The translations under genes were made by a program, and so were the position numbers. A stretch of DNA of 21,753 nucleotides from a virus. This document shows, in pieces, positions 1,073 to 21,753 of the stretch. The stretch lies in IMG/VR virus record IMGVR_UViG_3300036389_000009, positions 1 through 21,753 of that record; one strand, given 5' to 3'. The notes beneath the pieces were generated by a model. The model was not told the DNA's origin. It did not search any database and was given only the letters and a program-made list of their open reading frames with translations. How positions within the stretch are numbered: position 1 is the stretch's first letter; every line of letters begins with the position of its first letter.

Positions 1073-1076
1073 GATA

Positions 1077-3625: not shown

Positions 3626-4448
3626 ACCAGATCTATCCATTTTACAATGGAATATGGGGGACAGCCCTCATGCGAAAACTCTACGACCTAATTCATTAGG
3701 TCGAGCACAAATTCTCACGGACTTAATTAATGATAATAGTCCTACTATTATTTTACTTCAGGAGGCCCACCGAGGAGTCTTGTCATATGCTAATTTACGA
3801 CAATATGATCTGTTTGACGGCCCATCTAATTTAGTTACACTAATCAGTAAAAATAAATACAGCATAATTGACAATATATCTCATGAAAACCATTTTCATC
3901 TTCTGGCTTTAGATTCTTTATTTAAAGACGAGAAGGGATTGAAAATTATTAACCTACACCTACCTACATTACACAAAGATGAGGGGGAAAAGCAGGAGTA
4001 TATACGAAAACGCATGCCGGCCATAAATGTATGGCGCACTAAGTATGAGCCACGGTTTGAAATTATGGGTGGCGACTTTAATATTCCTCCTTACAATGCT
4101 GCACTGATAGAGGAAACAGGGGTTTTTGCCAATCGGGACATAAGACATGCCTCAACCTCTACTAGTACGTTCGGCTTTGGTAAGGCGCTATATAATACCA
4201 GCTGGCAGATATTTGGCGGAGCTTGTGGAGCGCTGGGTACTTATTATCAAAATAAATTACCGCATGGTCCTTGGCACATTCCGGATCAAATTATGCTTGA
4301 TCCGGAATTGGTTAAGCAATCTATAGTTTCCGTAAAGGTGATTACGGAAGCCAATAAAAAATCTTTTAAGTCAAAAATAGTTCAGGGACCAAACAAAGAT
4401 GTTGCTTCCGATCATTTCCCAGTGCTAGTTTCTGTAGAGATGATATAA
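3618..4448 (+). CDS. Endonuclease/exonuclease/phosphatase (EEP, DNase I-like) family enzyme
   Basis: The 276-aa product carries the full EEP active-site set in order: QWN (residues 10-12), LLQEA with Glu49 as metal ligand, NLHLPT with His114, GGDFN (151-155, Asp153 and Asn155), PDQIML with Asp223, and SDHFP (264-268, Asp265 and His266). Family members hydrolyse phosphodiester or phosphomonoester bonds with Mg2+; substrates range from DNA and RNA to inositol phosphates and nucleotides, so the substrate here is unknown. No signal peptide or membrane segment is visible, so it is probably cytoplasmic. Length is close to the bare catalytic domain. The ATG at 3618 is chosen because it overlaps the preceding stop by 8 nt; an in-frame upstream start at 3591 would overlap it further. 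Co-translation with the 580-aa protein argues that they act together. Confidence 0.85.
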   Translation: MSKPDLSILQWNMGDSPHAKTLRPNSLGRAQILTDLINDNSPTIILLQEAHRGVLSYANLRQYDLFDGPSNLVTLISKNKYSIIDNISHENHFHLLALDSLFKDEKGLKIINLHLPTLHKDEGEKQEYIRKRMPAINVWRTKYEPRFEIMGGDFNIPPYNAALIEETGVFANRDIRHASTSTSTFGFGKALYNTSWQIFGGACGALGTYYQNKLPHGPWHIPDQIMLDPELVKQSIVSVKVITEANKKSFKSKIVQGPNKDVASDHFPVLVSVEMI

Positions 4449-4747: not shown

Positions 4748-4795
4748 ATACCTCAACATACCTAAACTGGGTATGTTTGGTATTGCTTGAGGTAT
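4748..4795 (+). promoter_or_regulatory. Nested inverted repeats over a -7-like element (putative operator/promoter)
   Basis: The outer arms ATACCTCAA (4748-4756) and TTGAGGTAT (4787-4795) are perfect 9-bp inverted repeats. The inner arms CATACC (4757-4762) and GGTATG (4770-4775) form a second pair. ACATACCT also occurs twice in direct orientation, 10 bp apart (4746-4753 and 4756-4763). TATGTTTG at 4772-4779 matches the Bacteroidota -7 consensus TAnnTTTG exactly and lies inside the repeats; no clear -33 box is seen. This is a plausible autoregulatory operator for the downstream operon. An excisionase-binding or recombination site is an alternative. Confidence 0.5.
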
Positions 4796-4842
4796 TTTCT
4801 AGACCTTTCCTTTGCCATCGGCTGGTTTATCAAAGCCGATGT

Positions 4843-5196
4843 ATGACTGTTGATTTTCAGAAACTCCAAGATGAGGTAAGCGAAACACGCCAATTAGTGC
4901 GGGCGCTACTCGACAGGCTAAATCAGCCAACATCTGAGTCTTTAACCATTGAGGACTCTCCCCTAACGGCTCAGCAAGCCGCTGACTTTCTGGGCATCAC
5001 TACTGCCACCATTTACGACCTGGTCCACAATCGTCGTATCCCGAGTCACCGCCCTGCCAAGCGGCTGTATTTTCTTCGCAGCGAATTAATGGAATGGATT
5101 AAAAAGGGCCGACGTAGTACCAGCGAAGAGATAGAGGCTGAGTCTACCACTCGTAAAACGCGGCAATCGCGAACCAGCAGGGGGGCTGTAGCATGA
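4843..5196 (+). CDS. Excisionase-like helix-turn-helix protein (HTH_17 type)
   Basis: The product is 117 aa. Residues 1-28 form a short coiled coil (QKLQDEVSETRQLVRALL). Residues 41-90 form a MerR/excisionase-like winged helix, with LTAQQAADFLGI, TIYDLVHNRRIP and the wing leading to RSELMEWI. The tail is basic and rich in Ser, Thr and Arg. Proteins of this type bind DNA as recombination directionality factors or early-operon regulators in Bacteroidota mobile elements. The ATG at 4843 is preferred over an in-frame TTG at 4777, which lies inside the inverted-repeat region. It is the first gene of the phage-type operon; its TGA overlaps the next ATG (ATGA, 5193-5196). The repeats just upstream make self-regulation plausible. 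Confidence 0.75.
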   Translation: MTVDFQKLQDEVSETRQLVRALLDRLNQPTSESLTIEDSPLTAQQAADFLGITTATIYDLVHNRRIPSHRPAKRLYFLRSELMEWIKKGRRSTSEEIEAESTTRKTRQSRTSRGAVA

Positions 5197-5615
5197 ACGA
5201 ACTACCTGCCTTCCGAAAACTCCAAAACTTCATTGGAGAACAGACTGCCCGTCCCACACGTAAGCCAAAAGGCTCCAAGCCCGAAACCGCCAACTCACTA
5301 ACCCGAAAGGTCGTTAATCATATCCAAGCTCATGGCGGCTTTGCTACCCGGCTTCAGTCAACCGGACAGTACCGCGACGACCTGCAAAAATTCGTCCCAT
5401 CTCAGCAGCGTTCCGGTTTGCCTGATGTGATGGCCGTCTTTGATGGTAAGTCCTGCTTTGTCGAAATCAAGATTGGTCGCGATACTCTCAGTGGCGATCA
5501 GAGAAAAGCCATTGCCGAGCTCGAACAAGCCGGTGCCTGTGTGTTCGTTGCTAAAGATTTCGAGTCCTTCCAACGCTGGTTTACCGATCAGTTCCTTATA
5601 GCCCCATTCGCCTAA
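5193..5615 (+). CDS. VRR-NUC domain nuclease
   Basis: The 140-aa protein carries the PD-(D/E)xK signature of VRR-NUC nucleases: GLPD (residues 75-78), the strand CFVEIKIG with Glu91 and Lys93, then Asp102-Gln103 in the helix that follows. The N-terminal 35 residues are basic and probably flexible. Stand-alone VRR-NUC proteins of this size are common in phage replication modules, and some resolve branched DNA such as Holliday junctions. The gene overlaps the excisionase-like gene by 4 nt and precedes the helicase, consistent with a role in processing replicating or recombining element DNA. Whether it cuts junctions or other structures cannot be seen here. Confidence 0.82.
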   Translation: MNELPAFRKLQNFIGEQTARPTRKPKGSKPETANSLTRKVVNHIQAHGGFATRLQSTGQYRDDLQKFVPSQQRSGLPDVMAVFDGKSCFVEIKIGRDTLSGDQRKAIAELEQAGACVFVAKDFESFQRWFTDQFLIAPFA

Positions 5616-5672: not shown

Positions 5673-6782
5673 ATGAGCGATTACCAACAGGGCAAAGATA
5701 CGAAACGCCCGCGATTATATGATCTGTCGGATGAGGCAAAAGCCGACACTCCCGATTATGAACTGGAAGAACCGCAACCTGATGATTTTTTCATTATACA
5801 TCTGCGAACCGATGAGGTTGCCTTGTTGCTGTGGACATTTGAGCGCGACTCTAAAACTAACGAATGGATTCTTTCTGGTACCTACCGAACGGGAATTTTA
5901 GAATACCTCCAAAGCCAATCATTTGCCAAACGCTACCGACCTGACCAGGCCTCTACCTTTCTAATCCGTGGGGAAGCCATTATTGAACCCGTGATTGATA
6001 CGATCTTACGGGACTCAGCGAAGGCCTACATTCAGTCAATGCCTTACACGTTAACAGTCGATTACCTAGCGGCTACGTATGAAGGCCGAATGGAGATTTT
6101 CAACCGCCAACAACACCTGACAATAAATTCCAAAAGCCTGGAGGGGCTGCAAACCCATACCAGGCCATTACTGAGAGACAATGAAACGACCTGCTACGTA
6201 CCTTACCGTAATGGAATTATCCAAATCACTGCTGCGGGCGTTCGCATCCTACCTTATGAGTTTTTAGACGACCGCTGCGTATGGGCCTCACAGGTCTTAA
6301 AACGGGATTTCGATCCAACTGTTGACGGACAACAAAGCCACATCGCTCTGTTTCTTATCAACATCACTAACAGGGAGCCAGACCGACTGCGGGCGTTTCG
6401 CACCGCTATTGGCTATTTGATCCACAACCATGTAAGTCAGGCCGAAGGACAAGCCGTCCTCTGCTACGATGAAGAAGTGACCGACGCTAGAAAGCCCGAG
6501 GGTGGGACTGGAAAAGGCGTGTTTGGTAACGCAATCCGGCAAATTCGGCCAATGGCCGTTATTGACGGGAAGAAGTTTGATCAGAACGACCGGTTCTGTT
6601 TCCAGCAGGTCAACGAAGATACGGCCGTGGTCTGGATTGATGATCCGGTAGTCAATCATCCTAAGCCTGAACGCCGGTTTACCCTGGAGCGCTTTTTTAG
6701 CCTACTCACCGAAGGATGGGCGATTGAAAAAAACACGAACATGCGTTTCGCATACCGGCTAAAGAAGGGCCTAAACTACTGA
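5673..6782 (+). CDS. Phage/plasmid replicative helicase (SF3/primase-helicase-like), N-terminal and ATPase part; frame lost at 3' end
   Basis: The zero-frame product is 369 aa. Residues 1-250 match the region that precedes the ATPase in phage and plasmid primase-helicases. Walker A is GGTGKG (277-282) and Walker B is AVVWIDD (318-324). After Ile-Glu-Lys-Asn (351-354) the zero frame runs 15 unrelated residues to a TGA. The expected continuation, including the motif-C strand LLISSN and the arginine-rich SSNIRRQF, is in the -1 frame from 6734. The zero-frame protein therefore lacks sensor and arginine-finger residues and should not work as a helicase alone. Restoring both shifts would give a 545-aa protein. 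It sits between the VRR-NUC nuclease and the primase-like gene, the expected place for a replication helicase. Assignment to the DUF5906-like group is from motif order and context. Confidence 0.82.
   Translation: MSDYQQGKDTKRPRLYDLSDEAKADTPDYELEEPQPDDFFIIHLRTDEVALLLWTFERDSKTNEWILSGTYRTGILEYLQSQSFAKRYRPDQASTFLIRGEAIIEPVIDTILRDSAKAYIQSMPYTLTVDYLAATYEGRMEIFNRQQHLTINSKSLEGLQTHTRPLLRDNETTCYVPYRNGIIQITAAGVRILPYEFLDDRCVWASQVLKRDFDPTVDGQQSHIALFLINITNREPDRLRAFRTAIGYLIHNHVSQAEGQAVLCYDEEVTDARKPEGGTGKGVFGNAIRQIRPMAVIDGKKFDQNDRFCFQQVNEDTAVVWIDDPVVNHPKPERRFTLERFFSLLTEGWAIEKNTNMRFAYRLKKGLNY
6728..6753 (+). other. Candidate -1 ribosomal frameshift site: A AAA AAC plus downstream hairpin
   Basis: Zero-frame codons GAA AAA AAC place A AAA AAC (6728-6734) in the X XXY YYZ register required for -1 slippage; IS1 uses the same heptamer. 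The -1 frame has a TGA at 6725-6727, so it opens exactly here. Six nt downstream, ATGCG (6741-6745) and CGCAT (6749-6753) form a 5-bp stem with a TTT loop. AAGGA (6712-6716) lies 11 nt upstream, similar to the spacing at E. coli dnaX. The rival explanation is loss of one A from an A8 run (6727-6733 is now A7), by mutation or sequencing error. Confidence 0.5.
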
Positions 6783-7086
6783 TCTCGTCTAACGTGGTCA
6801 TGTCGAACGAAGGATCGAGCAACATCCGTCGGCAGTTCATTATCGAATTTGGCAATCATTATAAAAAACAGATCAAGAAGGGGAACGAGAAGCCGATACA
6901 GGCCGAGCACGGCTGTATTTTCTTCTCTGACGATTGGGACGAGGCCGAATGGAAGCGGTTCGATCAGTACATGATTGGCTGCGTGGTGGAATACCTACGG
7001 GATGGCTTGCAGCCGTATGCCCTGCGGAGCGCCGATCAAAACCGGCTGCGGCAAGTGGCAGGCGAAGAGTTCTACGAATGGATAAC

Positions 7087-7108
7087 CACCTACCAGGCAC
7101 CTACCAGG
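7087..7108 (+). repeat. Perfect 11-bp tandem duplication inside the helicase gene
   Basis: CACCTACCAGG occurs twice back to back (7087-7097 and 7098-7108). Because 11 is not a multiple of three, the second copy throws the helicase out of frame. With one copy removed, the frame reads EEFYEWITTYQGTGLVPNQE continuously into the C-terminal domain. The repeat is therefore most simply a duplication mutation, and one that slippage could reverse. Confidence 0.9.
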
Positions 7109-7320
7109 GGACGGGCTTAGTGCCGAATCAGGAGTACAGCCGGGATGATCTGTTCAAAGACTACAAGTCATTTGCAGGTATCCCAGATAATCAGGCTATT
7201 ACGCGCGGGTTCACTAATAATATTACGGCCTATGCCAAAGGGAAAGGCTGGAAATACGAACGCGGGTCTAGTATGCGAAACGTCACGTTCACTCTAAAAA
7301 CTCAAGAATCCTGCATTTAG
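7099..7320 (+). pseudogene. Helicase C-terminal domain displaced into a third frame
   Basis: After the 11-bp duplication, the helicase C-terminus continues in the next -1 frame for 73 codons to a TAG at 7318-7320. It reads YQGTGLVPNQEYSRDDLFKDY, then a helical domain (RGFTNNITAYAKGKGWKYERG) and a final strand (NVTFTLK). This small winged-helix-like tail, ending in K-x-W-x-Y and a beta-strand, is usual at the C-terminus of these primase-helicases. No sensible start codon precedes it in frame, so it is not a separate gene. Confidence 0.7.
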
Positions 7321-7323
7321 GAA

Positions 7324-7393
7324 ATAAGGATTCCACTGTTGGGGGGTATGTGTGTGCGTACACATATATACCCCTAAATAATAGGTTCCTTAT
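7324..7393. other. Structured intergenic region between helicase and primase genes
   Basis: GGGGT-ATGTGT (7343-7353) pairs with ACACAT (7360-7365), a 4-nt bulge, and ACCCC (7370-7374), around a 6-nt loop. Outside it, ATAAGGA (7324-7330) pairs with TCCTTAT (7387-7393). The result is an extended imperfect hairpin of about 70 nt in the only non-coding gap of the replication cluster. It could be a single-strand or primer origin, a protein-binding site or an attenuator. The inner ATGTGT/ACACAT arms resemble the operator at 15408-15432 in the opposite arrangement. Confidence 0.4.
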
Positions 7394-7427
7394 ATCCTAT
7401 ATGCAATAACCCTCCCCCTGTACCTGT

Positions 7428-8747
7428 ATGGCTCCTTCTCTGTTAGACCTGCCTATCAGCTTTTTCGAGTACGATTTAGCTCGCAATACGTTTGCTAACG
7501 TCCCCTCTCAGCAAACTACCCTTCGCCGGATGGCATCAACCCGCTATTACCAGAAACCGATTGAAGCCATCCGATCCGAATCCGACAAGCACAAGCAGGA
7601 TGAAATGAAAAAGCACCTGTCCGCTTTTACCCTGGCGCTGCTTCGCCATCGTAAGAAAGACACCTCTTTCGAGGAGAAAATTATTTACCAGTGGTCACTA
7701 CTGATGGGAGACATTGACCAAAAGGATAATCCAGGCGTTGACATGGCCGAACTAAAAACGCACCTCTGCACCCTGCCTTACGTGCTGCTCTGTGCCTACT
7801 CAGTCCGGGGCGGGCTGTGGTTTGTCGTTCGATTACCTGACCACCAGACGCCGGATACGTTGGCCGCTCATTTTCGGTACTTGCAAAAGCTGTTCACAAA
7901 TAAGTTTGATATCAAACTCGACAGCACTAAAGGCGGTAAGCCTACGGATCTGCGCTTTGTGTCTTTCGATGCGGCTCCATACCTAAATGATGATGCTACC
8001 GTTTTTTCCGGAACTTACACTCCTCCACCTCCCCGCCGTAAGCAAGTACCCTACAATCCCAGCACGAAGGATGATGAAGGTAAGCTACTGGCCCGCGTGG
8101 TTAAGGTGGTCAATAGTGCGGGGGAAGGCGTCAGGCATGAATCACTATTGAAAGCCGCCCGGTTAGCCGGTGGCTTTATTGGGGCTGATCGACTGGACGA
8201 ACAGAATGCAATTCTGGCGTTAGAAACTATAGCCTCTGAGTGGCCGCAGTTCGGTAAAAGTCAGAAAACAATCCGGGATGGCATCAAATATGGGCAAGCC
8301 TCTCCCTTGTTTCGCGAACGCTTACCAGAACGACCTGTTGAGCGTCCAGTGAGTCGAAAGCAACAGCCTAAGAGTACCGAGCCTATATTCTATCAATACA
8401 CAGAACAACTCTATTCCCAACCGCAACGTATAGAGGTAGAGGTTCAGACTCAGCCGCCTGCTTTTGAACCAAAGACAGAACCCATCATTGTTGTAACCAT
8501 TGCCGAGCAGTTAGCCAATCCCGGTAGCATCCTCCGTCCTGATGAATCACAGATCGAACGATGGGGCGAAGCTGAGGAATTGCTTGACCTGCCGCCCGAA
8601 TTGGACGAACCCGCACCACCTGGTACCGTGCCGACTATCCGTGTGTCAACGCCAACCAGCGGTAGTTACTTCAAATGGCAGAACAGCCCTGAAAGTCCCT
8701 TCAGCCAGCTTGGCCTGGCTTCACTCCAAACCAAACAACAATCATGA
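7428..8747 (+). CDS. BT4734-like/VirE N-terminal domain protein (primase-like)
   Basis: The 439-aa product has an N-terminal domain of the BT4734-like group found in Bacteroidota primase-helicases, related to archaeo-eukaryotic primases. Key elements are GDID (94-97, the acidic metal-binding pair), a short strand with SVRGGLWFVV (125-134) in place of the usual S-x-S-G-x-G, and DLRFVSFD-x-PYLN (174-187). A helical segment (about 220-300) follows. The last ~130 residues are Pro/Glu-rich and low complexity, probably disordered. In many relatives this domain is fused to the helicase; here it is separate and downstream of it. The likely role is priming of element replication. The ATG at 7428 follows the structured gap. 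The stop overlaps the next ATG (ATGA). Confidence 0.75.
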   Translation: MAPSLLDLPISFFEYDLARNTFANVPSQQTTLRRMASTRYYQKPIEAIRSESDKHKQDEMKKHLSAFTLALLRHRKKDTSFEEKIIYQWSLLMGDIDQKDNPGVDMAELKTHLCTLPYVLLCAYSVRGGLWFVVRLPDHQTPDTLAAHFRYLQKLFTNKFDIKLDSTKGGKPTDLRFVSFDAAPYLNDDATVFSGTYTPPPPRRKQVPYNPSTKDDEGKLLARVVKVVNSAGEGVRHESLLKAARLAGGFIGADRLDEQNAILALETIASEWPQFGKSQKTIRDGIKYGQASPLFRERLPERPVERPVSRKQQPKSTEPIFYQYTEQLYSQPQRIEVEVQTQPPAFEPKTEPIIVVTIAEQLANPGSILRPDESQIERWGEAEELLDLPPELDEPAPPGTVPTIRVSTPTSGSYFKWQNSPESPFSQLGLASLQTKQQS

Positions 8748-8977
8748 GATGCATTCACATTGACCTCAAATACGAACACTTCTTAGGTGACTACCACGGA
8801 CACCCTATCAAAGCTAGGCGGGATGTAAAGACCGGCGAAGTCCTCTTCGATGCCGAAAGTGTAGCACCCATCCTGGGCTTTGACTCAGCCGAAGCAATGC
8901 TCAGCGATGAAGCTGTATTAGCCGAGCTAAACCGACAGATTACCAACGGCAAAGCAACGCCGATCCGAAAACTTTAA
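8744..8977 (+). CDS. Small phage-type hypothetical protein
   Basis: A 77-aa protein whose ATG overlaps the primase-like gene stop by 4 nt, so it is translationally coupled. I do not recognise the family. The middle, AESVAPILGFDSAEAML, resembles the helix-turn-helix-like 'VA..LGY' pattern of BRO/antirepressor N-termini, but the domain is too short to claim this. No cysteines in pairs, signal peptide or membrane segment are seen. Confidence 0.65.
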   Translation: MRCIHIDLKYEHFLGDYHGHPIKARRDVKTGEVLFDAESVAPILGFDSAEAMLSDEAVLAELNRQITNGKATPIRKL

Positions 8978-8985
8978 ACCAATCA

Positions 8986-9576
8986 ATGATGAACAACACC
9001 CAACAACTCCACCCAGCTTACATGGTCTACTATAACAACCAGATCAACAAGCCCACCTGGACCTTTTTCTTTCATGACGACCTGCTCACGGCTCGTAAAG
9101 CAGCCATCACCCTGGCCGAATCGCTCTTTGGTAGTCATGCTCAGTTTACACCAGCCGAAGAGGTCGAGGTCCATTTGGTCGAAGCCATTGGCCCCGATGA
9201 TGCAGCTCCCCTTCCTATCGCCCGGGTCCTAGCCAAACGAAGCAGCCTGTTTGAGCAGGTGCATACTCAGGAAGACCCCCGCTTTATCGAGGAGATTCAT
9301 CCGCGTGTCAACTGGACCAACCGCGCTTTGATCGAGCTGGAATCTGAGTTCCGCTATTACCACCAGCATAAGCTGCCCATTGGCTTTGGGGTCTTTATGC
9401 TGCGGGTATTCCTAAGTCCGCTGATTCCAGAGGAAACTATCGCCATACTCTTTGATGCAGCGTCTTATGCCCTAGCCCTGATCAGCAATAACCCTGAACC
9501 GGCTCAACTGCTCTCGTTCACCCACCGGGAAGAATCCTCTCAAATCGAATTCGCCCCTTATCAAACCCAATCTTAA
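8986..9576 (+). CDS. Hypothetical protein in the replication-packaging operon
   Basis: This 196-aa, acidic protein is not recognised. Residues 10-70 look like an alpha/beta domain with several aromatics (MVYYNNQINKPTWTFFF), and the C-terminal third has a hydrophobic segment (FGVFMLRVFLSPLIP) that is probably a buried helix. There are two candidate starts in tandem (ATGATG at 8986); the first is used. It lies 8 nt after the preceding stop and 2 nt before the small terminase ATG, so it is within one operon. A role in packaging or replication is possible but not visible in the sequence. Confidence 0.65.
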   Translation: MMNNTQQLHPAYMVYYNNQINKPTWTFFFHDDLLTARKAAITLAESLFGSHAQFTPAEEVEVHLVEAIGPDDAAPLPIARVLAKRSSLFEQVHTQEDPRFIEEIHPRVNWTNRALIELESEFRYYHQHKLPIGFGVFMLRVFLSPLIPEETIAILFDAASYALALISNNPEPAQLLSFTHREESSQIEFAPYQTQS

Positions 9577-9578: not shown

Positions 9579-10097
9579 ATGGCAGCCCCTAAAGAAAATC
9601 AATTCTGGCGTCAGCGCAGCAAGCACGGTCGCGACAAACTCTTTGAAACCCCCGACGCCCTACTGGAAGCCGCGCATAGTTATTTCCAATGGTGCGATGA
9701 CAATCCCTGGCTAAAAACCGAGCAGCTCCGACGGCCGACAATTACCCAAGACACGGAAGGTAACCAAACGCTGCATACGGTAGCGGAACTGCCTACCGCC
9801 CGTCCGTATACCTTGAAAGGCCTGTGTCTGCATCTGGATGTTACGCCCGAGTGGTGGAGCCGCTTCCGCAAAAAGCATGAGGCCGATGGCGAGGAAGGTT
9901 TTAGTCAAGTCATTTCACGCGTGGAAGACATTATCTATACCCAGAAGTTTGAAGGGGCGGTCGTTGGTGCCTTCAACGCTAATATCATCAGTCGAGATCT
10001 GGGGCTGGTCGACAAAAAAGAACACGGTGGCAAGATCGAAATCGAGCAGATCACCGGTATGAACATCATCTCCACTACGCCCCCGTCTACCCCATGA
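9579..10097 (+). CDS. Terminase small subunit (gp3-like DNA-packaging protein)
   Basis: The 172-aa protein begins with the typical small-terminase opening (MAAPKENQFWRQRSKHGR). It has a helix-turn-helix-like middle (TLKGLCLHLDVTPEWWSRF) and the helix EDIIYTQKFEGAVVGAFNANIISRDLGL, which is characteristic of gp3-like packaging proteins. Small terminase recognises the packaging site on phage DNA and loads the large subunit. The gene overlaps the large-subunit gene by 4 nt (ATGA, 10094-10097), the expected pair order. The packaging site itself often lies in or near this gene, but I cannot point to it. Confidence 0.83.
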   Translation: MAAPKENQFWRQRSKHGRDKLFETPDALLEAAHSYFQWCDDNPWLKTEQLRRPTITQDTEGNQTLHTVAELPTARPYTLKGLCLHLDVTPEWWSRFRKKHEADGEEGFSQVISRVEDIIYTQKFEGAVVGAFNANIISRDLGLVDKKEHGGKIEIEQITGMNIISTTPPSTP

Positions 10098-11488
10098 GAC
10101 TCAACTTCGATGTGTTCGAGAATCAGAAGCAACTAGCCGTCTGCCAGCACTGGCAAGATCCCACGGTAACCGATATCGTCTACGGGGGAAGCAAGGGCTC
10201 AGGTAAATCCTATCTGGGCTGCTCGCTCATCTTTGGCGATGCCTTCACCTATCCCGAGACCCATTACTTCATTGCCCGTGATTCTTTGACCAACCTGCGT
10301 AAATACACTATTCCGTCGATTCATGAGGTGTTCGATCACTGGCAGCTGACTCCGAGCCACTACGCCTACAATGGTCAGGACAACTTCTACACATTGCATA
10401 ACGGTAGCCGGGTGTATTTGCTGGACGCTAAGTATCAGCCTCGTGACCCGCTGTACGCTCGTTTCGGTAGTATGCAAATGACCAGGGGCTGGATCGAGGA
10501 AGCGGGCGAGTTCCGCGAAGCCGCAAAGAACAACCTAGCGGCTTCGATAGGCCGTTGGAAGAATGATCTGTATAATCTGGCGCCTAAACTACTCCAGACT
10601 TGCAATCCAGCTAAGAACTACCTCTACAAACAGTATTACAAAAAGCATGCAGATCAGGAGTTAGAGCCTTGGAAGCGGTTCGTGCAGGCCTTTCCCCAGG
10701 ATAATAAGACGTTGCCTAAGGGTTATCTGCCCAATCTGCTGAGAACTCTGTCGGCCAATGAAATCGAGCGACTGGTGTACGGCAACTGGGAGTTTGACGA
10801 CGATCCGGCTGCCCTTATTGAGTACAACAGCATTATTGACCTGTGGAAAAATGAGCACATTCTTCGAAATGGTCAACGTTTCATCACTTGCGACGTGGCC
10901 CGCTATGGTAGGGACAGTTCCAAAGTCTGCGTGTGGGATGGCTGGCGAATTATCCAGTACCGGACCTACAAAGGGTTGTCGGTGCCTGAACTAGCCGACA
11001 AGGTGCGCGAGGCCATGAACGCCTTCGGCGTGACCGCGTCGCATGTAGTCGTGGATGACGATGGCGTAGGCGGTGGAGTAACCGACCTGATCAAATGCGT
11101 AGGCTTTGTCAATAACTCTCGCCCTGTCGAAGAGAAAGCGGCTAGTGGCAGCAAGCAGGTACCCAATTACGACAACCTCAAATCTCAGTGCTATTTCAAG
11201 CTGGCTGCCCGAATCAATAAGGGAGGGATATACATCGAACCCTCCGCCATGACCGAAGCTGAGCAGGAAGAACTAGTCGAAGAGTTGGAGCAGGTCAAGC
11301 AGAAGAACGTCAACAGCGAAGGCAAGCGGGCAGTAGTGTCCAAGGAGCGGATCAAGGAGCTCATCAAGCGCTCACCGGATAATTCGGACGTGTTGATGAT
11401 GCGCGAATACCTCGACCTTAAGCCGCCCGTTGTTCGGGGTGGAGTGCGGGTGTATTCGATACCTCTCCGGCCTGGACGTAGGTACTAA
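10094..11488 (+). CDS. Terminase large subunit (ATPase-nuclease)
   Basis: The 464-aa product has the two domains of a phage packaging motor. The ATPase part has Walker A GGSKGSGKS (31-39), Walker B-like RGWIEEAGE with Glu135/Glu136, and the coupling motif QTCNP (168-172). The RNase H-like nuclease part has three acidic positions: CDVARYG (Asp267), VVVDDDGVG (Asp321/322) and SPDNSDVLMM (Asp432). It translocates DNA into a procapsid and cuts it. Length is normal for the family and all motifs are intact. The downstream neighbour is a tape-measure-like gene; the portal and capsid genes that usually follow are missing. Confidence 0.93.
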   Translation: MRLNFDVFENQKQLAVCQHWQDPTVTDIVYGGSKGSGKSYLGCSLIFGDAFTYPETHYFIARDSLTNLRKYTIPSIHEVFDHWQLTPSHYAYNGQDNFYTLHNGSRVYLLDAKYQPRDPLYARFGSMQMTRGWIEEAGEFREAAKNNLAASIGRWKNDLYNLAPKLLQTCNPAKNYLYKQYYKKHADQELEPWKRFVQAFPQDNKTLPKGYLPNLLRTLSANEIERLVYGNWEFDDDPAALIEYNSIIDLWKNEHILRNGQRFITCDVARYGRDSSKVCVWDGWRIIQYRTYKGLSVPELADKVREAMNAFGVTASHVVVDDDGVGGGVTDLIKCVGFVNNSRPVEEKAASGSKQVPNYDNLKSQCYFKLAARINKGGIYIEPSAMTEAEQEELVEELEQVKQKNVNSEGKRAVVSKERIKELIKRSPDNSDVLMMREYLDLKPPVVRGGVRVYSIPLRPGRRY

Positions 11489-11490
11489 AC

Positions 11491-11524
11491 TTGTTGATTT
11501 ATTGATAGTTATCTTAATTTTTTG
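11491..11524 (+). promoter_or_regulatory. Possible promoter for the tape-measure-like gene
   Basis: Two TTG triplets (11491-11496) lie 18-21 bp upstream of TAATTTTTTG (11515-11524), which resembles the Bacteroidota -7 element TAnnTTTG with two extra T residues. This AT-rich 66-bp gap breaks the otherwise tight operon, so a new transcript may start here. The match is imperfect. Confidence 0.35.
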
Positions 11525-11554
11525 TATTATTACTCATACTAACAGCTAAAGAAA

Positions 11555-14500
11555 ATGCCCGAAACAAACGACCTAGTACTGCTTCGCATCGAGATTGACG
11601 AGCAGGGAGCCGATAAAAAACTAGAGGGGTTGATTGCCATCAAAGTCCGGCTCAAAAAGGAACTGGCCGACCTCAAAAAAGAGCAAAAGGCAGGTGTGAT
11701 TACTGCCAAGGAGTATCAGCAAAGCTATACAGCCATTACTACCCAACTTAAGGCCGCTGATGCCCAGATAAAAGCTACCAAAAAAAGCATTGAGGAACAG
11801 GCCGCAGTCACGGCCAAAGCGGAAGCCAGCCTACGGCAAATGCAACAGGGTTTTAAAATAACCAATGCAGACCTGCTGGCTCATCAGTCCGCTAACCAAG
11901 CCGTAAAAAAACGCATCACCGAGCTTAACGCAGAAATGACGGTAGAGAATGCCCGCCTAAAAGCGACGGCTACCAGCATGGATAAGCTGGATGATATGAT
12001 TGGCGAATTAGAGGACGCCTACCGGGGGCTGTCGCAGGCTCAACGCGAAGATGCCGAGGTGGGTGGTAAGCTGCTAACCACACTAGCCGGACTGGAACGC
12101 CAACAGCGTAAGCATCAGCAGTCAATTGATGACTCCAAAAAGACAATGAAAGACTACATCCGCGATGTGGATGTGTTAGGCTTCAATGTGGGGGCTACGA
12201 TTGACTCATTCAAAAACGGAGCGCAGGGCGTTAAGTTGTTTACGCAGGGTATTGGTACAGCCAGAGGGGCGCTCACGCTATTAGCCGCCGTGCCAATCAT
12301 CGCTATTCTAACCGGGCTGTATGTCATTCTGACCAAATCGCAGAAAGGCATGGATTTTCTAGCCAAAGCTACGGCTGGTGTGTCAGCTATCTTTTCGGCC
12401 CTTAGCACGAAGGTTATTGCCATAGGTGAAGCCCTAGCTAATGCCTGGGAGAATCCCAAGCAGGCCGTTATTGAGCTGGGCAACTTTATACAAACCAACC
12501 TGATCAACCGGGTAAAAGGGTTCGGTGTCCTCATCGATGCCATCCGCTCAGGTAATCTAGGCAAGATTGCCGACGGCTTTGCTCAAATCGGTTTCGGTGT
12601 AACTAATGCCGCTACTGGCTTAAAGAAGGTTTACGATCAGGGTGCAGCCGTTGCCCAAATGATCATCGACATTGAGAAGGCTGAAATCAGCCTCAACACT
12701 CAACGAGGCAAAAGTGAGAAGTTTATCGAGCGCCAGAAGCAAATCGCAGAGGATACCACAAAATCAATTGAAGCTCGCAAGATTGCTGAGCGGTCTGCCT
12801 TCGCTGAAAGTCAGAAGATTCAGAATGCCGAGGAGGCCTTACAAAAGAAACGGGTTGCATTGGCCCAGGCCGAGGCCAAGCAAAACCGGGGCAATCGGGA
12901 CTACTTAAAGAAAGTGTCCGAGGAGCAGGAGAAACTTGACCAGATCGGTAAAAATCGCATCGGGGAACGCACCGAACTACAAAACCAGTTGAATGCTCTC
13001 GATGCCGAGGGCGCTGCTAAGGCATTGGACAACCGCAAAAAGATTGCCGCTGAAGAGGTAGCCGAGGCCGAAGCTGCTCTAATCCTTGCTCAACGTAAAG
13101 GCGAAGAAACGCTATCTATCGAGCAGGAGATCTTACAACGTCAGATCAAGCTGATTCAGGCCCGTGCCGATGCTGAAAAAGTAGCCGTTGAAAAAGGGCG
13201 GGGCGCAGCCGCGCAGCGTAAGCTAATCCAAATAAAGGCCGATACGGAGATTTTAGAAGCGACTAAGCAAAGTGTTCAAAAGTCTGCCGATATCATCTAC
13301 AATGCGAAATCTGCTGAGATTAACAGCACCTTAGCCTTAACTCGTAAAGGCACGAAGGCCGAACTAGACTTACGGTTAGAAGGTATTGATGCGGCTCGCG
13401 TCAAAGAGCAGTCAGCTATTCAGCAACGCATTGACCTGAACAATGAACTGTTCAAGAAAAAACGCATTACCGAGCAGCAGTATAACGAAGCAGCTACCAA
13501 ATTAGAAATCGAGTTCGGCAACGTAGCCAATCAGGCCGCTAAGGCTCAGTCTGACGCCCGCATGGAGTTTGCTAAGTCGGAGGCTAACCGATTAGCGGAT
13601 CTGGCAGACAAGCGCATTCAAACTGAACTGGACAACAGCAACCAGAGCCTAGCCGCTGAACGGGATGCCGCTCAAAAACGTATCGATCTGGAAGCCAAAA
13701 CGCAGCAGGAGCTACTCGATATTGAGCGTAAGTACGATCAAATCAGCCAGGACGATTACGACACCCGCAGCAAGGCGTTAGCCGCTAAGAAGATAGCCGC
13801 TCAAAGGGCACTCAACAAACAAATTGTCGATGAGGACCGGGCGGCTCAAATAGCCATTATTGATGCTCAGTTAGAAATCGTTCGGGATGGATCTAAGAAG
13901 CAGTTAGACCTTCAATTAAAGCGGCTAAAAAAAGAGTATGAGCAGGCTATCGCCAACGCGAAAGGACAGGACGACGCTATCGAAAAAGCGAAGACCGATT
14001 ACGATAATAAACGGGCTAAAGTTCAGGATGATTACAATAAGAAGTTGGTCGACCAAATTGTCCAGATTGCTAACCAGGCGACTGCTGCATTTGATTCACT
14101 CATTGAAGCCTCGGCTGCCCGTCAGACAGCAGCCTTAGACGATCAGTATAAAGCTATCCTGTCGAGTGCGGCCCTTTCCGCAGAAGGTCGAGCGCAGATT
14201 GAAGAAAAGTACGCCAAGGAGAAAGAGCGGATTGACAAAGAAGCGGGTGAGCGCAAAAAGAAAACGGCCACGGCTGAGAACATCATAAATGGGATTGTAG
14301 CGGGTATCAAAGCCTTTGCTGATCTGGGGCCCATTGGCGGAGCCATTGCCTCAGCATTTATTGCCGCCAGCGTTATTGCTAATCAGATCAAAATAGATAG
14401 TCAAAAATTTGAAGAGGGTGGCGTTAACCGGGCAAAAGGTGGGCCGGTCTTTGGCCCTAGCCATAAGCAGGGCGGTATCCCAATGTATCATAAATCAGGG

Positions 14501-14854
14501 CGCTACGTTGGTGAAATGGAAGGTGACGAGATTATTCTAACCAAAGGGGTATACCGCGACCCCGCCACCCGCGCGATCGCGTCGGCGCTGAATGTGTCCA
14601 AAGGGGGTAGATCCTTTAGCGGCTTCGCTCCGCAGCTTCGTTACGACCTGGGCGGCTACGTACCCAGCTACCAACACGCCATTGGTGTAACCGCAAGCAT
14701 TGATGCCAACGCAATAGCCAACGCGGTAATCAGTGGGGTGAAGGCGGCTAATATCCGAGTTGGTGTAGATGCTATCACCCAAATGCAAAACGATGTAAAG
14801 CGGGTAGAGGCCGAGGCTGATTTCGGTACGGGCCCGCGTCCTCGATTTCGCTAA
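11555..14854 (+). CDS. Tape-measure-like protein (phage tail)
   Basis: This is the largest protein of the window, 1099 aa. Residues 15-200 and about 370-900 are long, charged coiled coils rich in Lys, Glu, Ala and Gln. A hydrophobic segment lies near 239-260 and a glycine/alanine-rich hydrophobic segment near 909-947. The C-terminus has GGPVFGPSHKQGGIP followed by VGEMEGDEIILTKG, the 'Gly-Gly...GPSH...GGI, E-x-E-G-x-E' pattern seen at the end of many phage tape-measure proteins. Tape measures set tail length and pass through the tube at infection. Against this call, no tail tube, chaperone or baseplate gene is nearby: it directly follows the terminase. A coiled-coil protein with another role is the alternative. 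The reading frame is intact. Confidence 0.75.
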   Translation: MPETNDLVLLRIEIDEQGADKKLEGLIAIKVRLKKELADLKKEQKAGVITAKEYQQSYTAITTQLKAADAQIKATKKSIEEQAAVTAKAEASLRQMQQGFKITNADLLAHQSANQAVKKRITELNAEMTVENARLKATATSMDKLDDMIGELEDAYRGLSQAQREDAEVGGKLLTTLAGLERQQRKHQQSIDDSKKTMKDYIRDVDVLGFNVGATIDSFKNGAQGVKLFTQGIGTARGALTLLAAVPIIAILTGLYVILTKSQKGMDFLAKATAGVSAIFSALSTKVIAIGEALANAWENPKQAVIELGNFIQTNLINRVKGFGVLIDAIRSGNLGKIADGFAQIGFGVTNAATGLKKVYDQGAAVAQMIIDIEKAEISLNTQRGKSEKFIERQKQIAEDTTKSIEARKIAERSAFAESQKIQNAEEALQKKRVALAQAEAKQNRGNRDYLKKVSEEQEKLDQIGKNRIGERTELQNQLNALDAEGAAKALDNRKKIAAEEVAEAEAALILAQRKGEETLSIEQEILQRQIKLIQARADAEKVAVEKGRGAAAQRKLIQIKADTEILEATKQSVQKSADIIYNAKSAEINSTLALTRKGTKAELDLRLEGIDAARVKEQSAIQQRIDLNNELFKKKRITEQQYNEAATKLEIEFGNVANQAAKAQSDARMEFAKSEANRLADLADKRIQTELDNSNQSLAAERDAAQKRIDLEAKTQQELLDIERKYDQISQDDYDTRSKALAAKKIAAQRALNKQIVDEDRAAQIAIIDAQLEIVRDGSKKQLDLQLKRLKKEYEQAIANAKGQDDAIEKAKTDYDNKRAKVQDDYNKKLVDQIVQIANQATAAFDSLIEASAARQTAALDDQYKAILSSAALSAEGRAQIEEKYAKEKERIDKEAGERKKKTATAENIINGIVAGIKAFADLGPIGGAIASAFIAASVIANQIKIDSQKFEEGGVNRAKGGPVFGPSHKQGGIPMYHKSGRYVGEMEGDEIILTKGVYRDPATRAIASALNVSKGGRSFSGFAPQLRYDLGGYVPSYQHAIGVTASIDANAIANAVISGVKAANIRVGVDAITQMQNDVKRVEAEADFGTGPRPRFR

Positions 14855-14895: not shown

Positions 14896-15291
14896 ATGAA
14901 ATACCTACGTGATTTAATAAAACGCGCTGAGTGTCGGTTTTTGCAAGCCTACATCCTTTTAGAGCGACCTGACCTGAAAGGCAAGACTTTCCGTCAACAG
15001 TTGAATACCTATATGCTGGACACAGTCCAGGAGTATGCTAAAAAAGAGATTGGGATGCCCCTGCCCTGGCTACTGGAGCGGGTTTGTGCTTATGATGCTA
15101 CCGAGTCGATAGGCCATTACCGGGCTTCGCTTTGGGTAGAGCGACAACGGCACACGGATTTGCTGCTTGAGCATGGCGATGAAATTGTGCATAACATTGA
15201 GTTGCAACAGGAAAGTATCGAAGCCCGTAAATTAGCGCGGCAGGCTATTGCCATACTGGAAGCAAGTCAGGATATCAACCGGTTAAACTGA
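14896..15291 (+). CDS. Hypothetical protein downstream of the tape-measure-like gene
   Basis: The 131-aa product is charged and mostly helical, with the last ~45 residues (IVHNIELQQESIEARKLARQAIAIL) likely a coiled coil. I do not recognise a family. It starts 41 nt after the preceding stop and is probably in the same transcript, followed by a weak terminator-like hairpin. Confidence 0.65.
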   Translation: MKYLRDLIKRAECRFLQAYILLERPDLKGKTFRQQLNTYMLDTVQEYAKKEIGMPLPWLLERVCAYDATESIGHYRASLWVERQRHTDLLLEHGDEIVHNIELQQESIEARKLARQAIAILEASQDINRLN

Positions 15292-15407: not shown

Positions 15408-15438
15408 TACACATTATGTATTTATATGTGTACCTTTG
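15408..15438 (+). promoter_or_regulatory. -7 element overlapped by a 7-bp inverted repeat (putative operator)
   Basis: TACCTTTG (15431-15438) matches the Bacteroidota -7 consensus TAnnTTTG exactly and lies 24 nt before the ATG at 15463. Perfect arms TACACAT (15408-15414) and ATGTGTA (15426-15432), with 11 nt between, span the core promoter and overlap the -7 box. A repressor bound here would block the polymerase. The HTH protein encoded immediately downstream is the natural candidate. No clear -33 box is seen. Confidence 0.55.
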
Positions 15439-15462
15439 CACATAAATAAAAATTTGACGCAT

Positions 15463-15942
15463 ATGCCATTGGAAAAAGAGTCAGTTGAAAAGGAATTAGC
15501 GGGCATTCGTGAGTTCTTCGATTATACCCGCTCCCGTATTTTATCTGTTTCAGCTATTGAGCAGGAAGCCGAAATCCCTAAAAATACGTTGCTTAATGTA
15601 CTGAAGGCTAATCGAACCATTGCGACTAACCACATTAGCAGCTTAGTTGAAGTTTTGGCAAAGGTCGGTTATCAGGCTCAGGAGAATTGGAGTCAGTTTA
15701 AAACAGGCGGTATCTATTTTTATTTTAACTACCCAAACCGAAAGGTGACGCTGCATAGAGGAGAGTGTTCATTTTGTAAAAACGGGGAGGGTGCGCAAAC
15801 AAATAAGCTCGGTGAGATTAACGGCGGATGGCGTGGGGGATTTGACTCATATGAGAGTGCAGTCGTCGAAGCCCAGCAAATTGCTCAAGAAATAGCAGTT
15901 ATACCCATGAATTGTAGCAGATGTAATCCGCAGGACAATTAA
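15463..15942 (+). CDS. HTH regulator with C-terminal Cys/His motif domain
   Basis: The 159-aa product has a helix-turn-helix at about residues 27-70: ILSVSAIEQEAEIPKNTL, then a recognition-type helix and VEVLAKVGYQ, the form common in phage-borne regulators. The C-terminal half has His98, Cys102, Cys105 and a distant pair Cys151/Cys154, with an intervening GGWRGGFDSYESAVVEAQQIA. This His-Cys-Cys plus Cys-x2-Cys layout suggests a small zinc-bound domain. The ATG at 15463 is chosen over a TTG at 15436, which lies inside the -7 box. The inverted repeat over its promoter suggests autorepression. It stands next to the NACHT gene on the opposite strand, and may act as an element regulator or as a regulator of that cargo. 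Confidence 0.7.
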   Translation: MPLEKESVEKELAGIREFFDYTRSRILSVSAIEQEAEIPKNTLLNVLKANRTIATNHISSLVEVLAKVGYQAQENWSQFKTGGIYFYFNYPNRKVTLHRGECSFCKNGEGAQTNKLGEINGGWRGGFDSYESAVVEAQQIAQEIAVIPMNCSRCNPQDN

Positions 15943-16502: not shown

Positions 16503-18290
16503 CTATATTTTAATTATTTTCTCTAAATTACTGTCTTCTTGAAGCACCTCGAATTGAAGCTCTTTTAACTTATTTACAATCATTAACTTAATTTTGTTTA
16601 TATGCTCTGGAAGGTTATATTCAATTAGTATATCATACAGAATGTTATTCTGATTGTCTAACGGGATTACTCCTTTTGTTTGAAAATCCGGAAACTTGGT
16701 TAATATATCTAACATTGCTCCTGTATCTGAAGGAAAGTTTCTAATAGGTTCAAAATCAAAGATATCTATTAGATTCTGTAGAGAGTACAGAAGAGAATTA
16801 CTTTGCATATCAATCAGTAAAGTATAATTTGGTTCAAAAAATTCGTTTAACCCGTTAGCCCCAAATCGCAACTCTGATTTAGTACACTTAAAGAATTCTA
16901 ATAGTAATTCATACATATTTTTCTTATCTAACGCTTCTTTTATTTTCATCAATTCTGGTATTGTTACTAAATGTATAAAAGATATCCTATCCAGTTCTAA
17001 ACATAAGGAATAAAAATTTAGACCATTATCATTGCTAATACTATCAAATTTGGCAATAGCTTTTTCATAGGCATTTTTTTTATTTTTCATCGGTAATGAT
17101 TGGATGAATTTTGCTGCAAAATATTCTTGCATTGATCGATGTGGAAATACGTATTCAAATCCATCCTTGTAAATAATCGATAGGGCAACTTCAAGGTCGT
17201 TTATAAAGTCTTTAATTATATATTTATACTCCGTTGCTTCTTTTACTACTTTTAGGGTATCAACCATATATTCTTCTGTAAAAGCAAATTTGCCATCCAT
17301 TAGTGAAATATATGAATAAATAGCTAAGATGCTCTCAAAATCTTCACGCTCTAAATGAGTTAACTTTTCTCTAGGAAAGCTATTTTTATTTATTCCGTCA
17401 TGTCTTGAAAATAAAGTATCAAATACATTTCGATAAAAGGCACTTTTTCTTTTTGGAATTTCAGGATGGCTATTAAAAGCAAGGATGAACATAGAAAGGA
17501 GAAGAGGATTTGTGAGGTAATGTTTATATGATGAGTTTCTCCTGTCATTCACCGCTGCAATTATATTGTCTCTTCTTTCTATTGGCGTTACAAATTGATT
17601 AATAAATTGCAATATATCGCTTTGGCTTAATTTATTCATCCTAAAATCATGAAATCTATTCGTTCGTTCAATACCGCTGCCAGGTCTTGAAGTAATTAAA
17701 AAGTAATTTTCTGAATAAGATTCGAAAAATATATCTAATTGCTGATTAAGTTCATTTCTTCTGTGAGAATATACCTCATCAAAACCGTCAAAAAGAAAAA
17801 TAAAATTCCCATTTTTTAGCGCTCTTTTTAACGTTGTAATCGAGGGTTTTATATTTAAGTTTATTATTTTCTCAAAGACGAAATTTTCAAAACCTGATTT
17901 ATACTCATTTAATGCTCTTAGCTCAATGACTACAGGTATTCTTTGTGCCTTTTTTATAAATTGAAAGAAAATGTATTTAATCAGTGTCGTCTTACCACTA
18001 CCTGCATGCCCAATTAAAGTAATATTTTTATAGTTACTAAATATTTCTTCTGCATTGCTAAAATCAGTATTAAGAAAGCGATATGAAGCAGTTATATGGA
18101 AGTAAGAATCATTAAACTTAACCTTTTCATAAGGGTACAAAAAATTATTTGAAAGATAATATTTCTCAGTTTGAATGCGTAGATAGTTAGCTAGCCCATA
18201 CTCAGTTAAATTTTTAAACTCATTGTTTATAAGCGTTATTCCATTTATGATTGGATTAACAAGATTGCTAATTTCAATATTAGTTTCCAT
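16503..18290 (-). CDS. NACHT-domain STAND NTPase (bacterial NLR-like)
   Basis: The 595-aa protein has a complete NACHT core: Walker A GHAGSGKTT (94-102), Walker B FIFLFDGFDEV (163-173, ending in Asp-Gly-Phe-Asp-Glu as in NACHT proteins), sensor FLITSRPGSG (197-206) and a winged-helix/HRSMQEYFAA motif (384-393). The first ~85 residues form a short N-terminal part without a recognisable effector domain, and the last ~190 residues are helical with no clear repeats. Bacterial NACHT proteins are anti-phage sensors that oligomerise on detecting phage components. The gene is far more AT-rich than its neighbours and on the opposite strand, which fits a separately acquired defence cargo. The lack of an obvious effector means either a small unknown N-terminal effector or a partner elsewhere; no partner gene is adjacent. 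Confidence 0.88.
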   Translation of the reverse strand: METNIEISNLVNPIINGITLINNEFKNLTEYGLANYLRIQTEKYYLSNNFLYPYEKVKFNDSYFHITASYRFLNTDFSNAEEIFSNYKNITLIGHAGSGKTTLIKYIFFQFIKKAQRIPVVIELRALNEYKSGFENFVFEKIINLNIKPSITTLKRALKNGNFIFLFDGFDEVYSHRRNELNQQLDIFFESYSENYFLITSRPGSGIERTNRFHDFRMNKLSQSDILQFINQFVTPIERRDNIIAAVNDRRNSSYKHYLTNPLLLSMFILAFNSHPEIPKRKSAFYRNVFDTLFSRHDGINKNSFPREKLTHLEREDFESILAIYSYISLMDGKFAFTEEYMVDTLKVVKEATEYKYIIKDFINDLEVALSIIYKDGFEYVFPHRSMQEYFAAKFIQSLPMKNKKNAYEKAIAKFDSISNDNGLNFYSLCLELDRISFIHLVTIPELMKIKEALDKKNMYELLLEFFKCTKSELRFGANGLNEFFEPNYTLLIDMQSNSLLYSLQNLIDIFDFEPIRNFPSDTGAMLDILTKFPDFQTKGVIPLDNQNNILYDILIEYNLPEHINKIKLMIVNKLKELQFEVLQEDSNLEKIIKI

Positions 18291-18771: not shown

Positions 18772-18978
18772 ATGTCAGACCAAACCCAACATACAGGACA
18801 AATGATTAGAGAAGCACGATTAAAAGCGGGCTTAACTCAAAAGGAGTTAGGCGAACGTATGGGTGTATCGGAATCCGCAATTAACAAACTTGAGAATAGT
18901 AAACATGCTCCTACGCTCACGACCTTAGAGCGTATTGCAGAGGCTGTAGGAGTAAAGCTAGTCCTTAAGTTTGAATGA
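18772..18978 (+). CDS. XRE-family (Cro/CI-type) HTH regulator
   Basis: The 68-aa product is one helix-turn-helix domain: QMIREARLKAGLTQKELGER (helices 1-2), MGVSESAINKLENSK (recognition helix region) and PTLTTLERIAEAVG (helices 4-5), ending in a short strand (VKLVLKFE). Such single-domain XRE proteins are phage repressors, Cro-like switches or antitoxins. No toxin gene is adjacent. The ATG at 18772 is used; a TTG at 18763 is also in frame. It lies between the NACHT gene (divergent) and the integration module, so it may control either. Confidence 0.85.
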   Translation: MSDQTQHTGQMIREARLKAGLTQKELGERMGVSESAINKLENSKHAPTLTTLERIAEAVGVKLVLKFE

Positions 18979-19139: not shown

Positions 19140-19514
19140 ATGTCAACAGGACAAAGTTACCTGGGGAAAGGGGATTCTACAACCCTTCTTGAGCATTCGG
19201 ATCAAATATCCCCTCAAAACACCGCTCTGGCTGATGATCTTTCAGCCCCTTCAATCAATCCCCGCATCTACGAAGCGCAAACCCGGTTGCTGGACCTATC
19301 AGACCAGTTTGTAACGCTTGGCTTTGAGCAAGGACCTATGCAGGCCATTGGTGATATGCTTACGCACTGGCTAACGACACCGACGGAAAAGCTCGCAGCA
19401 GACCAGTTACGGGCCATGCAGCTACTGATTGGCCTGCTCAGTACATTCTATTCTGCTACCAGCCAGCCGTTGACGTCTGCTTCCACTTCTATTACTCTCT
19501 GCCTCTCCTGCTAG
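19140..19514 (+). CDS. Hypothetical protein upstream of the integration module
   Basis: The 124-aa product has a polar N-terminus and a helical middle (YEAQTRLLDLSDQF, QAIGDMLTHWLT, LRAMQLLIGLLSTFYSA). I do not recognise it. The ATG at 19140 is used. It precedes the HNH endonuclease gene by 100 bp, which contain no convincing gene. Confidence 0.55.
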   Translation: MSTGQSYLGKGDSTTLLEHSDQISPQNTALADDLSAPSINPRIYEAQTRLLDLSDQFVTLGFEQGPMQAIGDMLTHWLTTPTEKLAADQLRAMQLLIGLLSTFYSATSQPLTSASTSITLCLSC

Positions 19515-19614: not shown

Positions 19615-20076
19615 ATGAATACTAATCAAGTAGCACCAGTAAGCGCTCACAAACGGCGCAAGTATCAACCGCACACCCTTTGTGCTCCCGACCTGCCGGG
19701 GGAAATCTGGAAACAGATTCCAGACATAGAGCCCCGTTTCGAGGTGTCTAACATGGGCAGGCTTCGGAGTGCGGTCTACTCTGACATTCCCGGTATAGTC
19801 GTAGAACACCCTGACGGGCGAATACTGAAAACCAGCGCCAGAGAAGACGGGCTTGAATCAGTAGTGGTAAAGAGCTACGGCAAGCCAGCCTATTTACGCC
19901 CTCACCGACTCGTAGCAAAGCTCTTTGTGCCTAATCCAGAGGGCTTTACAAGCGTTCGGCACAAAGACGGCGACAAATCGAATAATCGAGCCGATAATTT
20001 AGTCTGGTTCAAGCAATGGGAAAAATTTAAATCAACACCACAAAATTCAAAATCAAACCAGAGGGAATATAGATAA
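19615..20076 (+). CDS. NUMOD4/HNH homing-type endonuclease
   Basis: The 153-aa product has a NUMOD4 motif (GEIWKQIPDIEPRFEVSNMG, about residues 29-48) and an HNH motif (HRLVAKLFVPNPEG followed by VRHKDGDKSNNRADNLVW, about 97-131), where His-x-Asp and Asn-Asn-Arg-x-x-Asn-Leu-x-Trp are the hallmarks. Stand-alone enzymes like this are phage-borne homing endonucleases that nick or cut DNA and promote their own spread. It lies 44 bp before the tyrosine recombinase. Start ATG is at 19615; the last residues are low complexity. Confidence 0.88.
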   Translation: MNTNQVAPVSAHKRRKYQPHTLCAPDLPGEIWKQIPDIEPRFEVSNMGRLRSAVYSDIPGIVVEHPDGRILKTSAREDGLESVVVKSYGKPAYLRPHRLVAKLFVPNPEGFTSVRHKDGDKSNNRADNLVWFKQWEKFKSTPQNSKSNQREYR

Positions 20077-21497: not shown

Positions 21498-21753
21498 TCT
21501 TGACCCTTTCAGTTGTAATGATATGGAGACCTTACAAGAGTGGGTGTCTCTGTTGCAGCAGATGGTGGTTAACCTGCAAGGCATGGATAAGTCCAGCCAC
21601 AAGATCGGCGATCTGCTCTACCGGGTCAATGAAAAGCAGGGTGAACAAATAGCCTTATTAAAGGAGCAGAACGAGCTGATGAAGGCCCGCTTGAAACAGT
21701 ACGAAGTAGCGTTCTCAGCCGAGCATTTCAACGATGTACGCAGGCTGAATTAA
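21484..21753 (+). CDS. Small coiled-coil protein coupled to the integrase
   Basis: From ATG 21484 the product is 89 aa, mostly helical with a coiled coil (VNEKQGEQIALLKEQNELMKAR cut short here as VNEKQGEQIALL). The start overlaps the integrase gene by 14 nt. A second ATG at 21523 would give 76 aa without overlap and is equally possible. Family is not recognised. It resembles small coiled-coil partners of recombinases or regulators only in size and position. It ends at the window edge. Confidence 0.55.
   Translation: MTLFNLDPFSCNDMETLQEWVSLLQQMVVNLQGMDKSSHKIGDLLYRVNEKQGEQIALLKEQNELMKARLKQYEVAFSAEHFNDVRRLN

Follow-up and report, generated by a model that had tools for sequence, protein, structure and literature searches.

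The stretch of DNA analysed here (the window, 21,753 bases, which is the entire virus record) is probably a phage satellite without shell genes, which carries its own packaging motor and a tape-measure protein (TMP) and belongs to a family in Bacteroidota. Our best explanation as a whole, in which we place good though not complete confidence, is that the window holds the greater part of a phage satellite integrated in a Spirosomataceae-like bacterium. The family is supported as one of head-less satellites with a swappable terminase-plus-tape-measure cassette, the satellite kind itself being already known. Packaging into helper particles remains an inference without induction or particle data.

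Three genes follow one another at the centre of the argument (here and below on the plus strand unless stated otherwise): the small terminase subunit TerS (9579..10097; PF16677, E 5e-27; phrog_606, E 8.8e-45), the large subunit TerL (10094..11488; PF03237, E 7.9e-07; phrog_2, E 1.5e-22) and a 1099-aa protein (11555..14854), which starts 66 bp behind the TerL stop. TerL retains an undamaged Walker A motif (GGSKGSGKS) as well as those acidic residues that its relatives have in common, and it is 73-77% identical to TerLs from phages and satellites found in the same family of bacteria. For the 1099-aa protein itself, neither Pfam nor PHROG gave a significant match. It is 34% identical over 1006 aa to the TMP of phage G408, and from this full-length homology we identify it as a TMP. 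The G408 protein (1101 aa), encoded within the tail module of this 54.9-kb phage, has a TMP PHROG match with an E-value of 2.7e-5. Phage record G408 is also found as a prophage on G628:C1 (L140, L141), a contig of 5.79 Mb that represents an almost complete chromosome, with 100% identity of the compared proteins. Further alignments link the window TMP to TMPs of Bacteroidota phages, among them annotated ones of Croceibacter phage P2559Y, and, with 28% identity, to the TMP of the sister element G566:C17, which matches the TMP family phrog_25241 (E 4.6e-11). An earlier note on this DNA had described intact terminase genes followed directly by a tape-measure-like gene, with no room for head genes. 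The coordinates and the 66-bp gap confirm this arrangement, the clear family matches and intact TerL motif residues confirm the state of the terminases, and homology to the TMPs of G408, P2559Y and G566:C17 confirms the assignment of the third gene.

A Pfam and PHROG scan covered every gene-like ORF of the window from about 75 aa upwards and revealed no gene for a portal, capsid, protease, connector, tube, holin or lysin. Tail-tip genes are absent from the window and no capsid-size or tail-interference gene was recognised in it. In front of the terminase genes lie an AlpA/excisionase-like HTH_17 regulator (4777..5196; PF12728, E 6.5e-14), which has homologues at the same place in sister elements, a VRR-NUC nuclease (5193..5615; PF08774) with homologues of 36-68% in sister elements, a primase/helicase-like Rep (5673..7374; phrog_28855) and the primase-like core protein prim (7428..8747). 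They are followed by the small conserved protein e (8744..8977; 77 aa; 44-68% in three sister elements) and by the conserved protein f of unknown function (8986..9576), with homologues of 28-30% at the same place in the sister elements G622:C17 and G608:C16. Rep is split by two frameshifts: its similarity to the unbroken homologue of G622:C7 (562 aa) continues through three frames in succession, with identities of 70%, 91% and 49%. These frameshifts reflect either decay of the window copy or errors in the record or the sequencing; given both of them, the window copy may be dead. The integrase, regulators and replication module listed by the earlier note are present (replication genes at 5673-8747), but the double frameshift of Rep had been missed.

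The conserved right end comprises an Xre-type regulator (18775..18978; phrog_1373, E 1.5e-18; 72% in G622:C17), the conserved unknown ORF i (19140..19514; homologues of 51% in G622:C17 and 39% in G608:C16), a tyrosine integrase (20121..21497; PF13102, E 4.2e-8; 47% in G608:C16 at the same place) and a terminal coiled ORF (21523..21753), whose homologues (43% and 35%) are the last element genes in G622:C17 and G608:C16, respectively. An HNH/NUMOD4 homing endonuclease (19615..20076; PF13392, PF07463) lies between ORF i and the integrase. Between the TMP and this right end, an unknown ORF behind the TMP (14896..15291) has no family match and a second one (15436..15942) has no Pfam, PHROG or PADLOC match. 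A NACHT-type STAND NTPase with a C-terminal SNaCT8 domain follows on the minus strand (16503..18290; PF05729, E 1.1e-9; PF22714, E 3.7e-8) in a low-GC stretch (about 0.30); we regard it as cargo and as a defence candidate. The left cargo (302..4448; GC about 0.40) consists of a 256-aa ORF, a serine resolvase (1044-1775; PF00239, E 1.2e-24), a 598-aa ORF and a weak endonuclease/phosphatase-like ORF (3591-4448), and its membership in the element is uncertain. PADLOC gave no clear match for the NACHT gene or the left cargo. Both window termini lie exactly at ORF stop codons, which the earlier note had likewise missed. To judge from these ends, the record appears to have been trimmed at gene borders, so the left window end need not be the end of the element. 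A search of the window for direct repeats yielded no attachment sites.

A Spirosoma-like (Spirosomataceae-like) soil bacterium as host is deduced from the resolvase, whose counterparts on plasmids of Fibrella and Spirosoma are 75% and 72% identical to it, as well as from the genomes in which sister elements reside. This genome group was reached via a Y-family polymerase close to one on a Spirosoma plasmid, the carboxylate-amine ligase of a Spirosoma plasmid being of no use as a taxonomic marker. The window integrase found no match in plasmids or in the phylum sample. The unannotated Persicobacter plasmid CP012855 (L037, 48.5 kb) resembles a complete plasmid-prophage with a 1221-aa TMP.

The shared core (integrase, AlpA-like HTH, VRR nuclease, Rep and prim) occurs at about 20 other places in Spirosomataceae-like genomes, where sister elements were read in 20-kb stretches around prim matches. 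At 8 of these places, as in the window, a packaging gene and/or a TMP comes next and never head genes. The TMP-bearing elements number nine (the window, G622:C17, G608:C16, G564:C16, G622:C7, G608:C22, G640:C11, G566:C17 and G541:C20). A likely tenth element, G622:C20 (L215), is incomplete and apparently decaying, with its TMP in pieces of 682 and 101 aa and a damaged integrase. The best marker of the family is prim, which is matched in 18 of 158 genomes and reaches an identity of no less than 59% at some 15 further places; related phage loci gave a single distant match. Protein e is confined to TMP-bearing elements and missing from every TMP-less element examined. A search with it found G622:C17 only, and its resemblance to phage antirepressors is very weak (E 0.16). 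Single-protein searches of IMG/VR with the window TMP, primase or Rep gave no matches, and the IMG/VR relatives were found via TerL alignment. Among about 90 such loci with a related TerL, this gene is in most cases followed by a portal gene (a cluster of 57 members) or by a tail gene, the head module then lying elsewhere. L040 (G409) alone has a TMP directly behind TerL, apart from one small ORF.

A genome search at family level located the L040 element on contig C17 of genome G622 and also gave a third element, G608:C16, as well as two phages. In common with the window, G622:C17 has the primase-like gene, e (68%), f, TerS (54%) and TerL (74%), and at the right end the Xre regulator (72%), ORF i (51%) and the last ORF. 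Behind its TerL a 150-aa ORF precedes a 1206-aa TMP (TMP_3, E 5.8e-27) and cargo unlike that of the window. G608:C16 is complete, with host genes on both sides of about 23 kb, and reads integrase, AlpA-like HTH, VRR nuclease, RepA-like ATPase, prim, f, TerS, TerL, a small ORF, a TMP of 1213 aa, cargo, ORF i, two integrases and the last ORF; its TerL, prim and TerS are 76%, 54% and 56% identical to those of the window. Its ends, searched for attachment repeats, showed only 10-bp matches. Neither of these two elements contains head genes. The same gene order without capsid genes, for which the earlier note had proposed to search related genomes, hence recurs in divergent elements that share a non-phage core.

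The slot behind the core is filled in different ways. In G564:C16, the same core is followed by an unrelated TerS (phrog_51) and TerL (phrog_38, E 5.9e-72) directly before the TMP. G566:C17, G541:C20 and G640:C11 each have a TerS, of three different families, and then a TMP without TerL, while G608:C22 and G622:C7 combine the TMP with an HNH gene, found in front of the TMP in one element, or with tail-chaperone-like genes. In all, four TerS types precede TMPs (phrog_606, phrog_51, phrog_309 and, weakly, phrog_24579), a TerL of phrog_2 or phrog_38 type occurs in four elements and was seen in none of the other TMP-bearing ones, and there are at least four TMP types (TMP_3/phrog_18891, phrog_5062, phrog_28 and the G408 type). 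From this variety we infer repeated swaps of the cassette in a single slot. To account for TMP carriage, the prim tree requires at least three changes. Two tail-assembly-chaperone-like proteins without a PHROG match (L186, 9614-10027; L214, 8430-8840) directly precede phrog_5062-type TMPs, and in G608:C1 such a chaperone-like gene with a phrog_5062-type TMP is present twice in tandem. Core elements without TMP carry other cargo, including restriction systems (type IIG and type III matches) and, by our reading of the sequences, putatively type I restriction. Seven of them (L191, L192, L193, L194, L195, L199 and L201) have restriction or helicase-type cargo and resemble a defence-carrying island family. 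The TMP-less elements L193, L191, L196 and L192 close with tandem rows of small ORFs that are related to one another (lengths of about 85-165 aa; starts such as MKRAEK.. or MKFEKGREKTGGR..).

Judged by substitution rates (dN about 0.1-0.35, dS about 1 or saturated), the terminase genes are under purifying selection. Between the window and G622:C17, dN is 0.21 with saturated dS for TerL, 0.35 with a dS of 1.5 for TerS, and 0.20 with a dS of 0.94 for protein e. The terminases are constrained although there are no heads for them to fill. In a quick tree, the satellite TerLs form no clade apart from the phage TerLs, and this intermixing is as expected if the genes were exchanged.

An example of such exchange is presented by genome G622, which carries the satellite on contig C17 together with a phage on contig C54. 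This phage has TerS, TerL, major head protein, portal, structural genes and a TMP of 1215 aa, the portal and head genes lying between TerL and TMP. Satellite and prophage are 73% identical in the TMP (over 1193 aa) and 85% in TerL. Within terL, a tract of 546 bp has 2 mismatches (L142 2391-2936 vs L144, L145), and within tmp, 977 bp have 7 mismatches inside a 1069-bp match with 22 (L142 5146-6214), whereas the flanks are about 45-76% identical. Tracts of 99% DNA identity indicate that the two recombined recently, and we read them as recent gene conversion in exactly the two virion genes that satellite and phage have in common. The assembly is a draft, and the tracts could partly be an assembly effect; the scattered mismatches argue against this. 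Since the TMPs of the satellite (1206 aa) and its candidate helper (1215 aa) are nearly equal in length, tail shortening is not the point here.

From the gene families, the following course can be proposed. An active helper phage would trigger the AlpA-like regulator to switch the element on, the integrase would excise it and it would replicate with its own Rep/primase. Its own TerS-TerL, or its own TerS with the TerL of the helper, would then bring the element DNA to empty heads made by the helper. The TMP would be built into tails whose remaining parts come from the helper, a step proposed after the precedent of the Vibrio PLE satellites. The outcome would be chimeric particles and a diversion of helper heads and tails. 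TMP and terminase may have been taken from local phages and kept similar to theirs by recombination. Gene content, conservation and exchange are observed; activation, excision, replication, packaging and the use of helper heads are all inferred from family membership. For the window copy no helper is known, and the closest phage TMP is only the 34% identical one.

The TMP could alternatively be a weapon rather than a virion part, that is, a decoy which ties up the tail chaperones and tube protein of the helper and blocks its tails; the element itself would then rely on helper tails made in another way or on lateral transduction. Defence systems of satellites and prophages are known to attack tail assembly and above all TMP (Rta, PMC12987554; Tab, PMC10884400), and many sister elements have defence cargo in place of a TMP. 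We nevertheless regard a decoy as unlikely: the TMP is intact, full-length, of helper-like length in G622 and mostly a neighbour of packaging genes, satellite and helper TMP are kept alike by gene conversion, and the PLE precedent shows incorporation.

Somewhat less probable still is the defective prophage, which the earlier note had named as the alternative: an ordinary siphophage from which the head and most tail genes were deleted between TerL and TMP and behind the TMP. Phages with TerS, TerL, head genes and TMP in this order do exist nearby (G622:C54, and the portal cluster right after TerL among the IMG/VR relatives), and the window rep gene is frameshifted. Against this, the plan recurs in divergent elements whose common core is not seen in phages, the terminases are under purifying selection, and terminases and TMPs of unrelated families occupy the slot. 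One deletion cannot have given rise to the sister elements that have TerS-TMP or an unrelated TerS-TerL there. In the nearest full phage, G408, the TMP lies upstream of the head genes and the terminase downstream, so no single deletion yields the window order, and a deletion in a G408-like phage that placed the TMP after TerL is ruled out. Relatives with a full head module between terminase and TMP, which were to refute the satellite reading, were indeed found among phages such as G622:C54; they are, however, candidate helpers and not sister elements. The satellite-like element suggested by the earlier note is therefore supported by the recurrence of the head-less plan, the complete copy in G608:C16 and the purifying selection on the terminases, packaging still being an inference.

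That head genes lie elsewhere, outside a cut record or in a split genome, has very little left in its favour. Its ends make the window record look trimmed at gene boundaries, and that the element stops at the left end is unproven, but G608:C16 is complete between host genes without head genes, which largely refutes this reading. A head-less tailocin or gene transfer agent was rejected for lack of tube, sheath, baseplate and capsid genes.

To our knowledge, no satellite was known to encode a TMP before 2026. The PLE satellites of Vibrio put their own TMP into tails, and deletion of tmp cuts transduction by 96-99.9% in three PLEs (PMC12987554). In PLE11 particles, the satellite TMP replaces that of the phage and the tails are about 10 nm shorter; this work showed a satellite TMP once and suspected a wider occurrence (PMC12987554). 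As in PLE, the TMP of the family described here is encoded in a head-less integrative element, adjoins other tail genes, differs between variants and in some members has a chaperone-like gene beside it. In contrast to PLE, the family belongs to another bacterial phylum with no shared sequence shown (no PLE genes were compared), it has terminase genes (TerS, sometimes TerL), an AlpA-like regulator and a Rep/primase module, and its likely helper is a temperate co-resident phage, not the lytic ICP1.

PLE differ from PICIs in organization and gene content (PMC6092414). With Gram-negative PICIs, the family shares the integrase, the AlpA-like regulator, the primase/Rep module, TerS in several members, the lack of head and lysis genes and accessory defence cargo. 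It differs by a structural gene (TMP), by TerL in some members and by its size of about 20-23 kb versus 12-15 kb. Of the PICI criteria (PMC6092414), an integrase, a replication module and a master regulator in conserved order are met, the window Rep being frameshifted; a size of about 12-15 kb is not met, as G608:C16 has about 23 kb; and for unique attachment sites never used by prophages, a further criterion, the ends of G608:C16 offer only the 10-bp matches. Although the core fits, TMP and size fall outside, and we therefore do not file the family as PICI. For some cfPICIs, a tmp gene has been predicted (PMC12987554, Extended Data Fig. 10). The own TerL is a feature in common with cfPICIs, from which the absence of capsid, portal and connector genes in the window and the sister elements sets the family apart. 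P4-like satellites are similar in integrase, AlpA/Vis-like regulator, primase and full dependence on the structural genes of a helper. P4 itself is not known to have a terminase or a TMP. Head, portal, tail tube and lysis genes, as expected of a complete tailed prophage, are present neither in the window nor in G608:C16. Our literature search found no description of satellites of Spirosomataceae or Cytophagales.

Whether the elements form an undescribed satellite class of Bacteroidota, defined by a swappable cassette of TerS (with or without TerL) and TMP, the lack of a capsid, gene conversion that matches the cassette to local helpers and a TMP that serves as key to helper tails, is in our view an even question. 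The family adds an independent phylum with at least nine elements and repeated gains of unrelated TMPs in one slot. In G622, a satellite and a prophage have exchanged pieces of exactly their two common virion genes. The general question why satellites bring their own tape measure thereby becomes testable.
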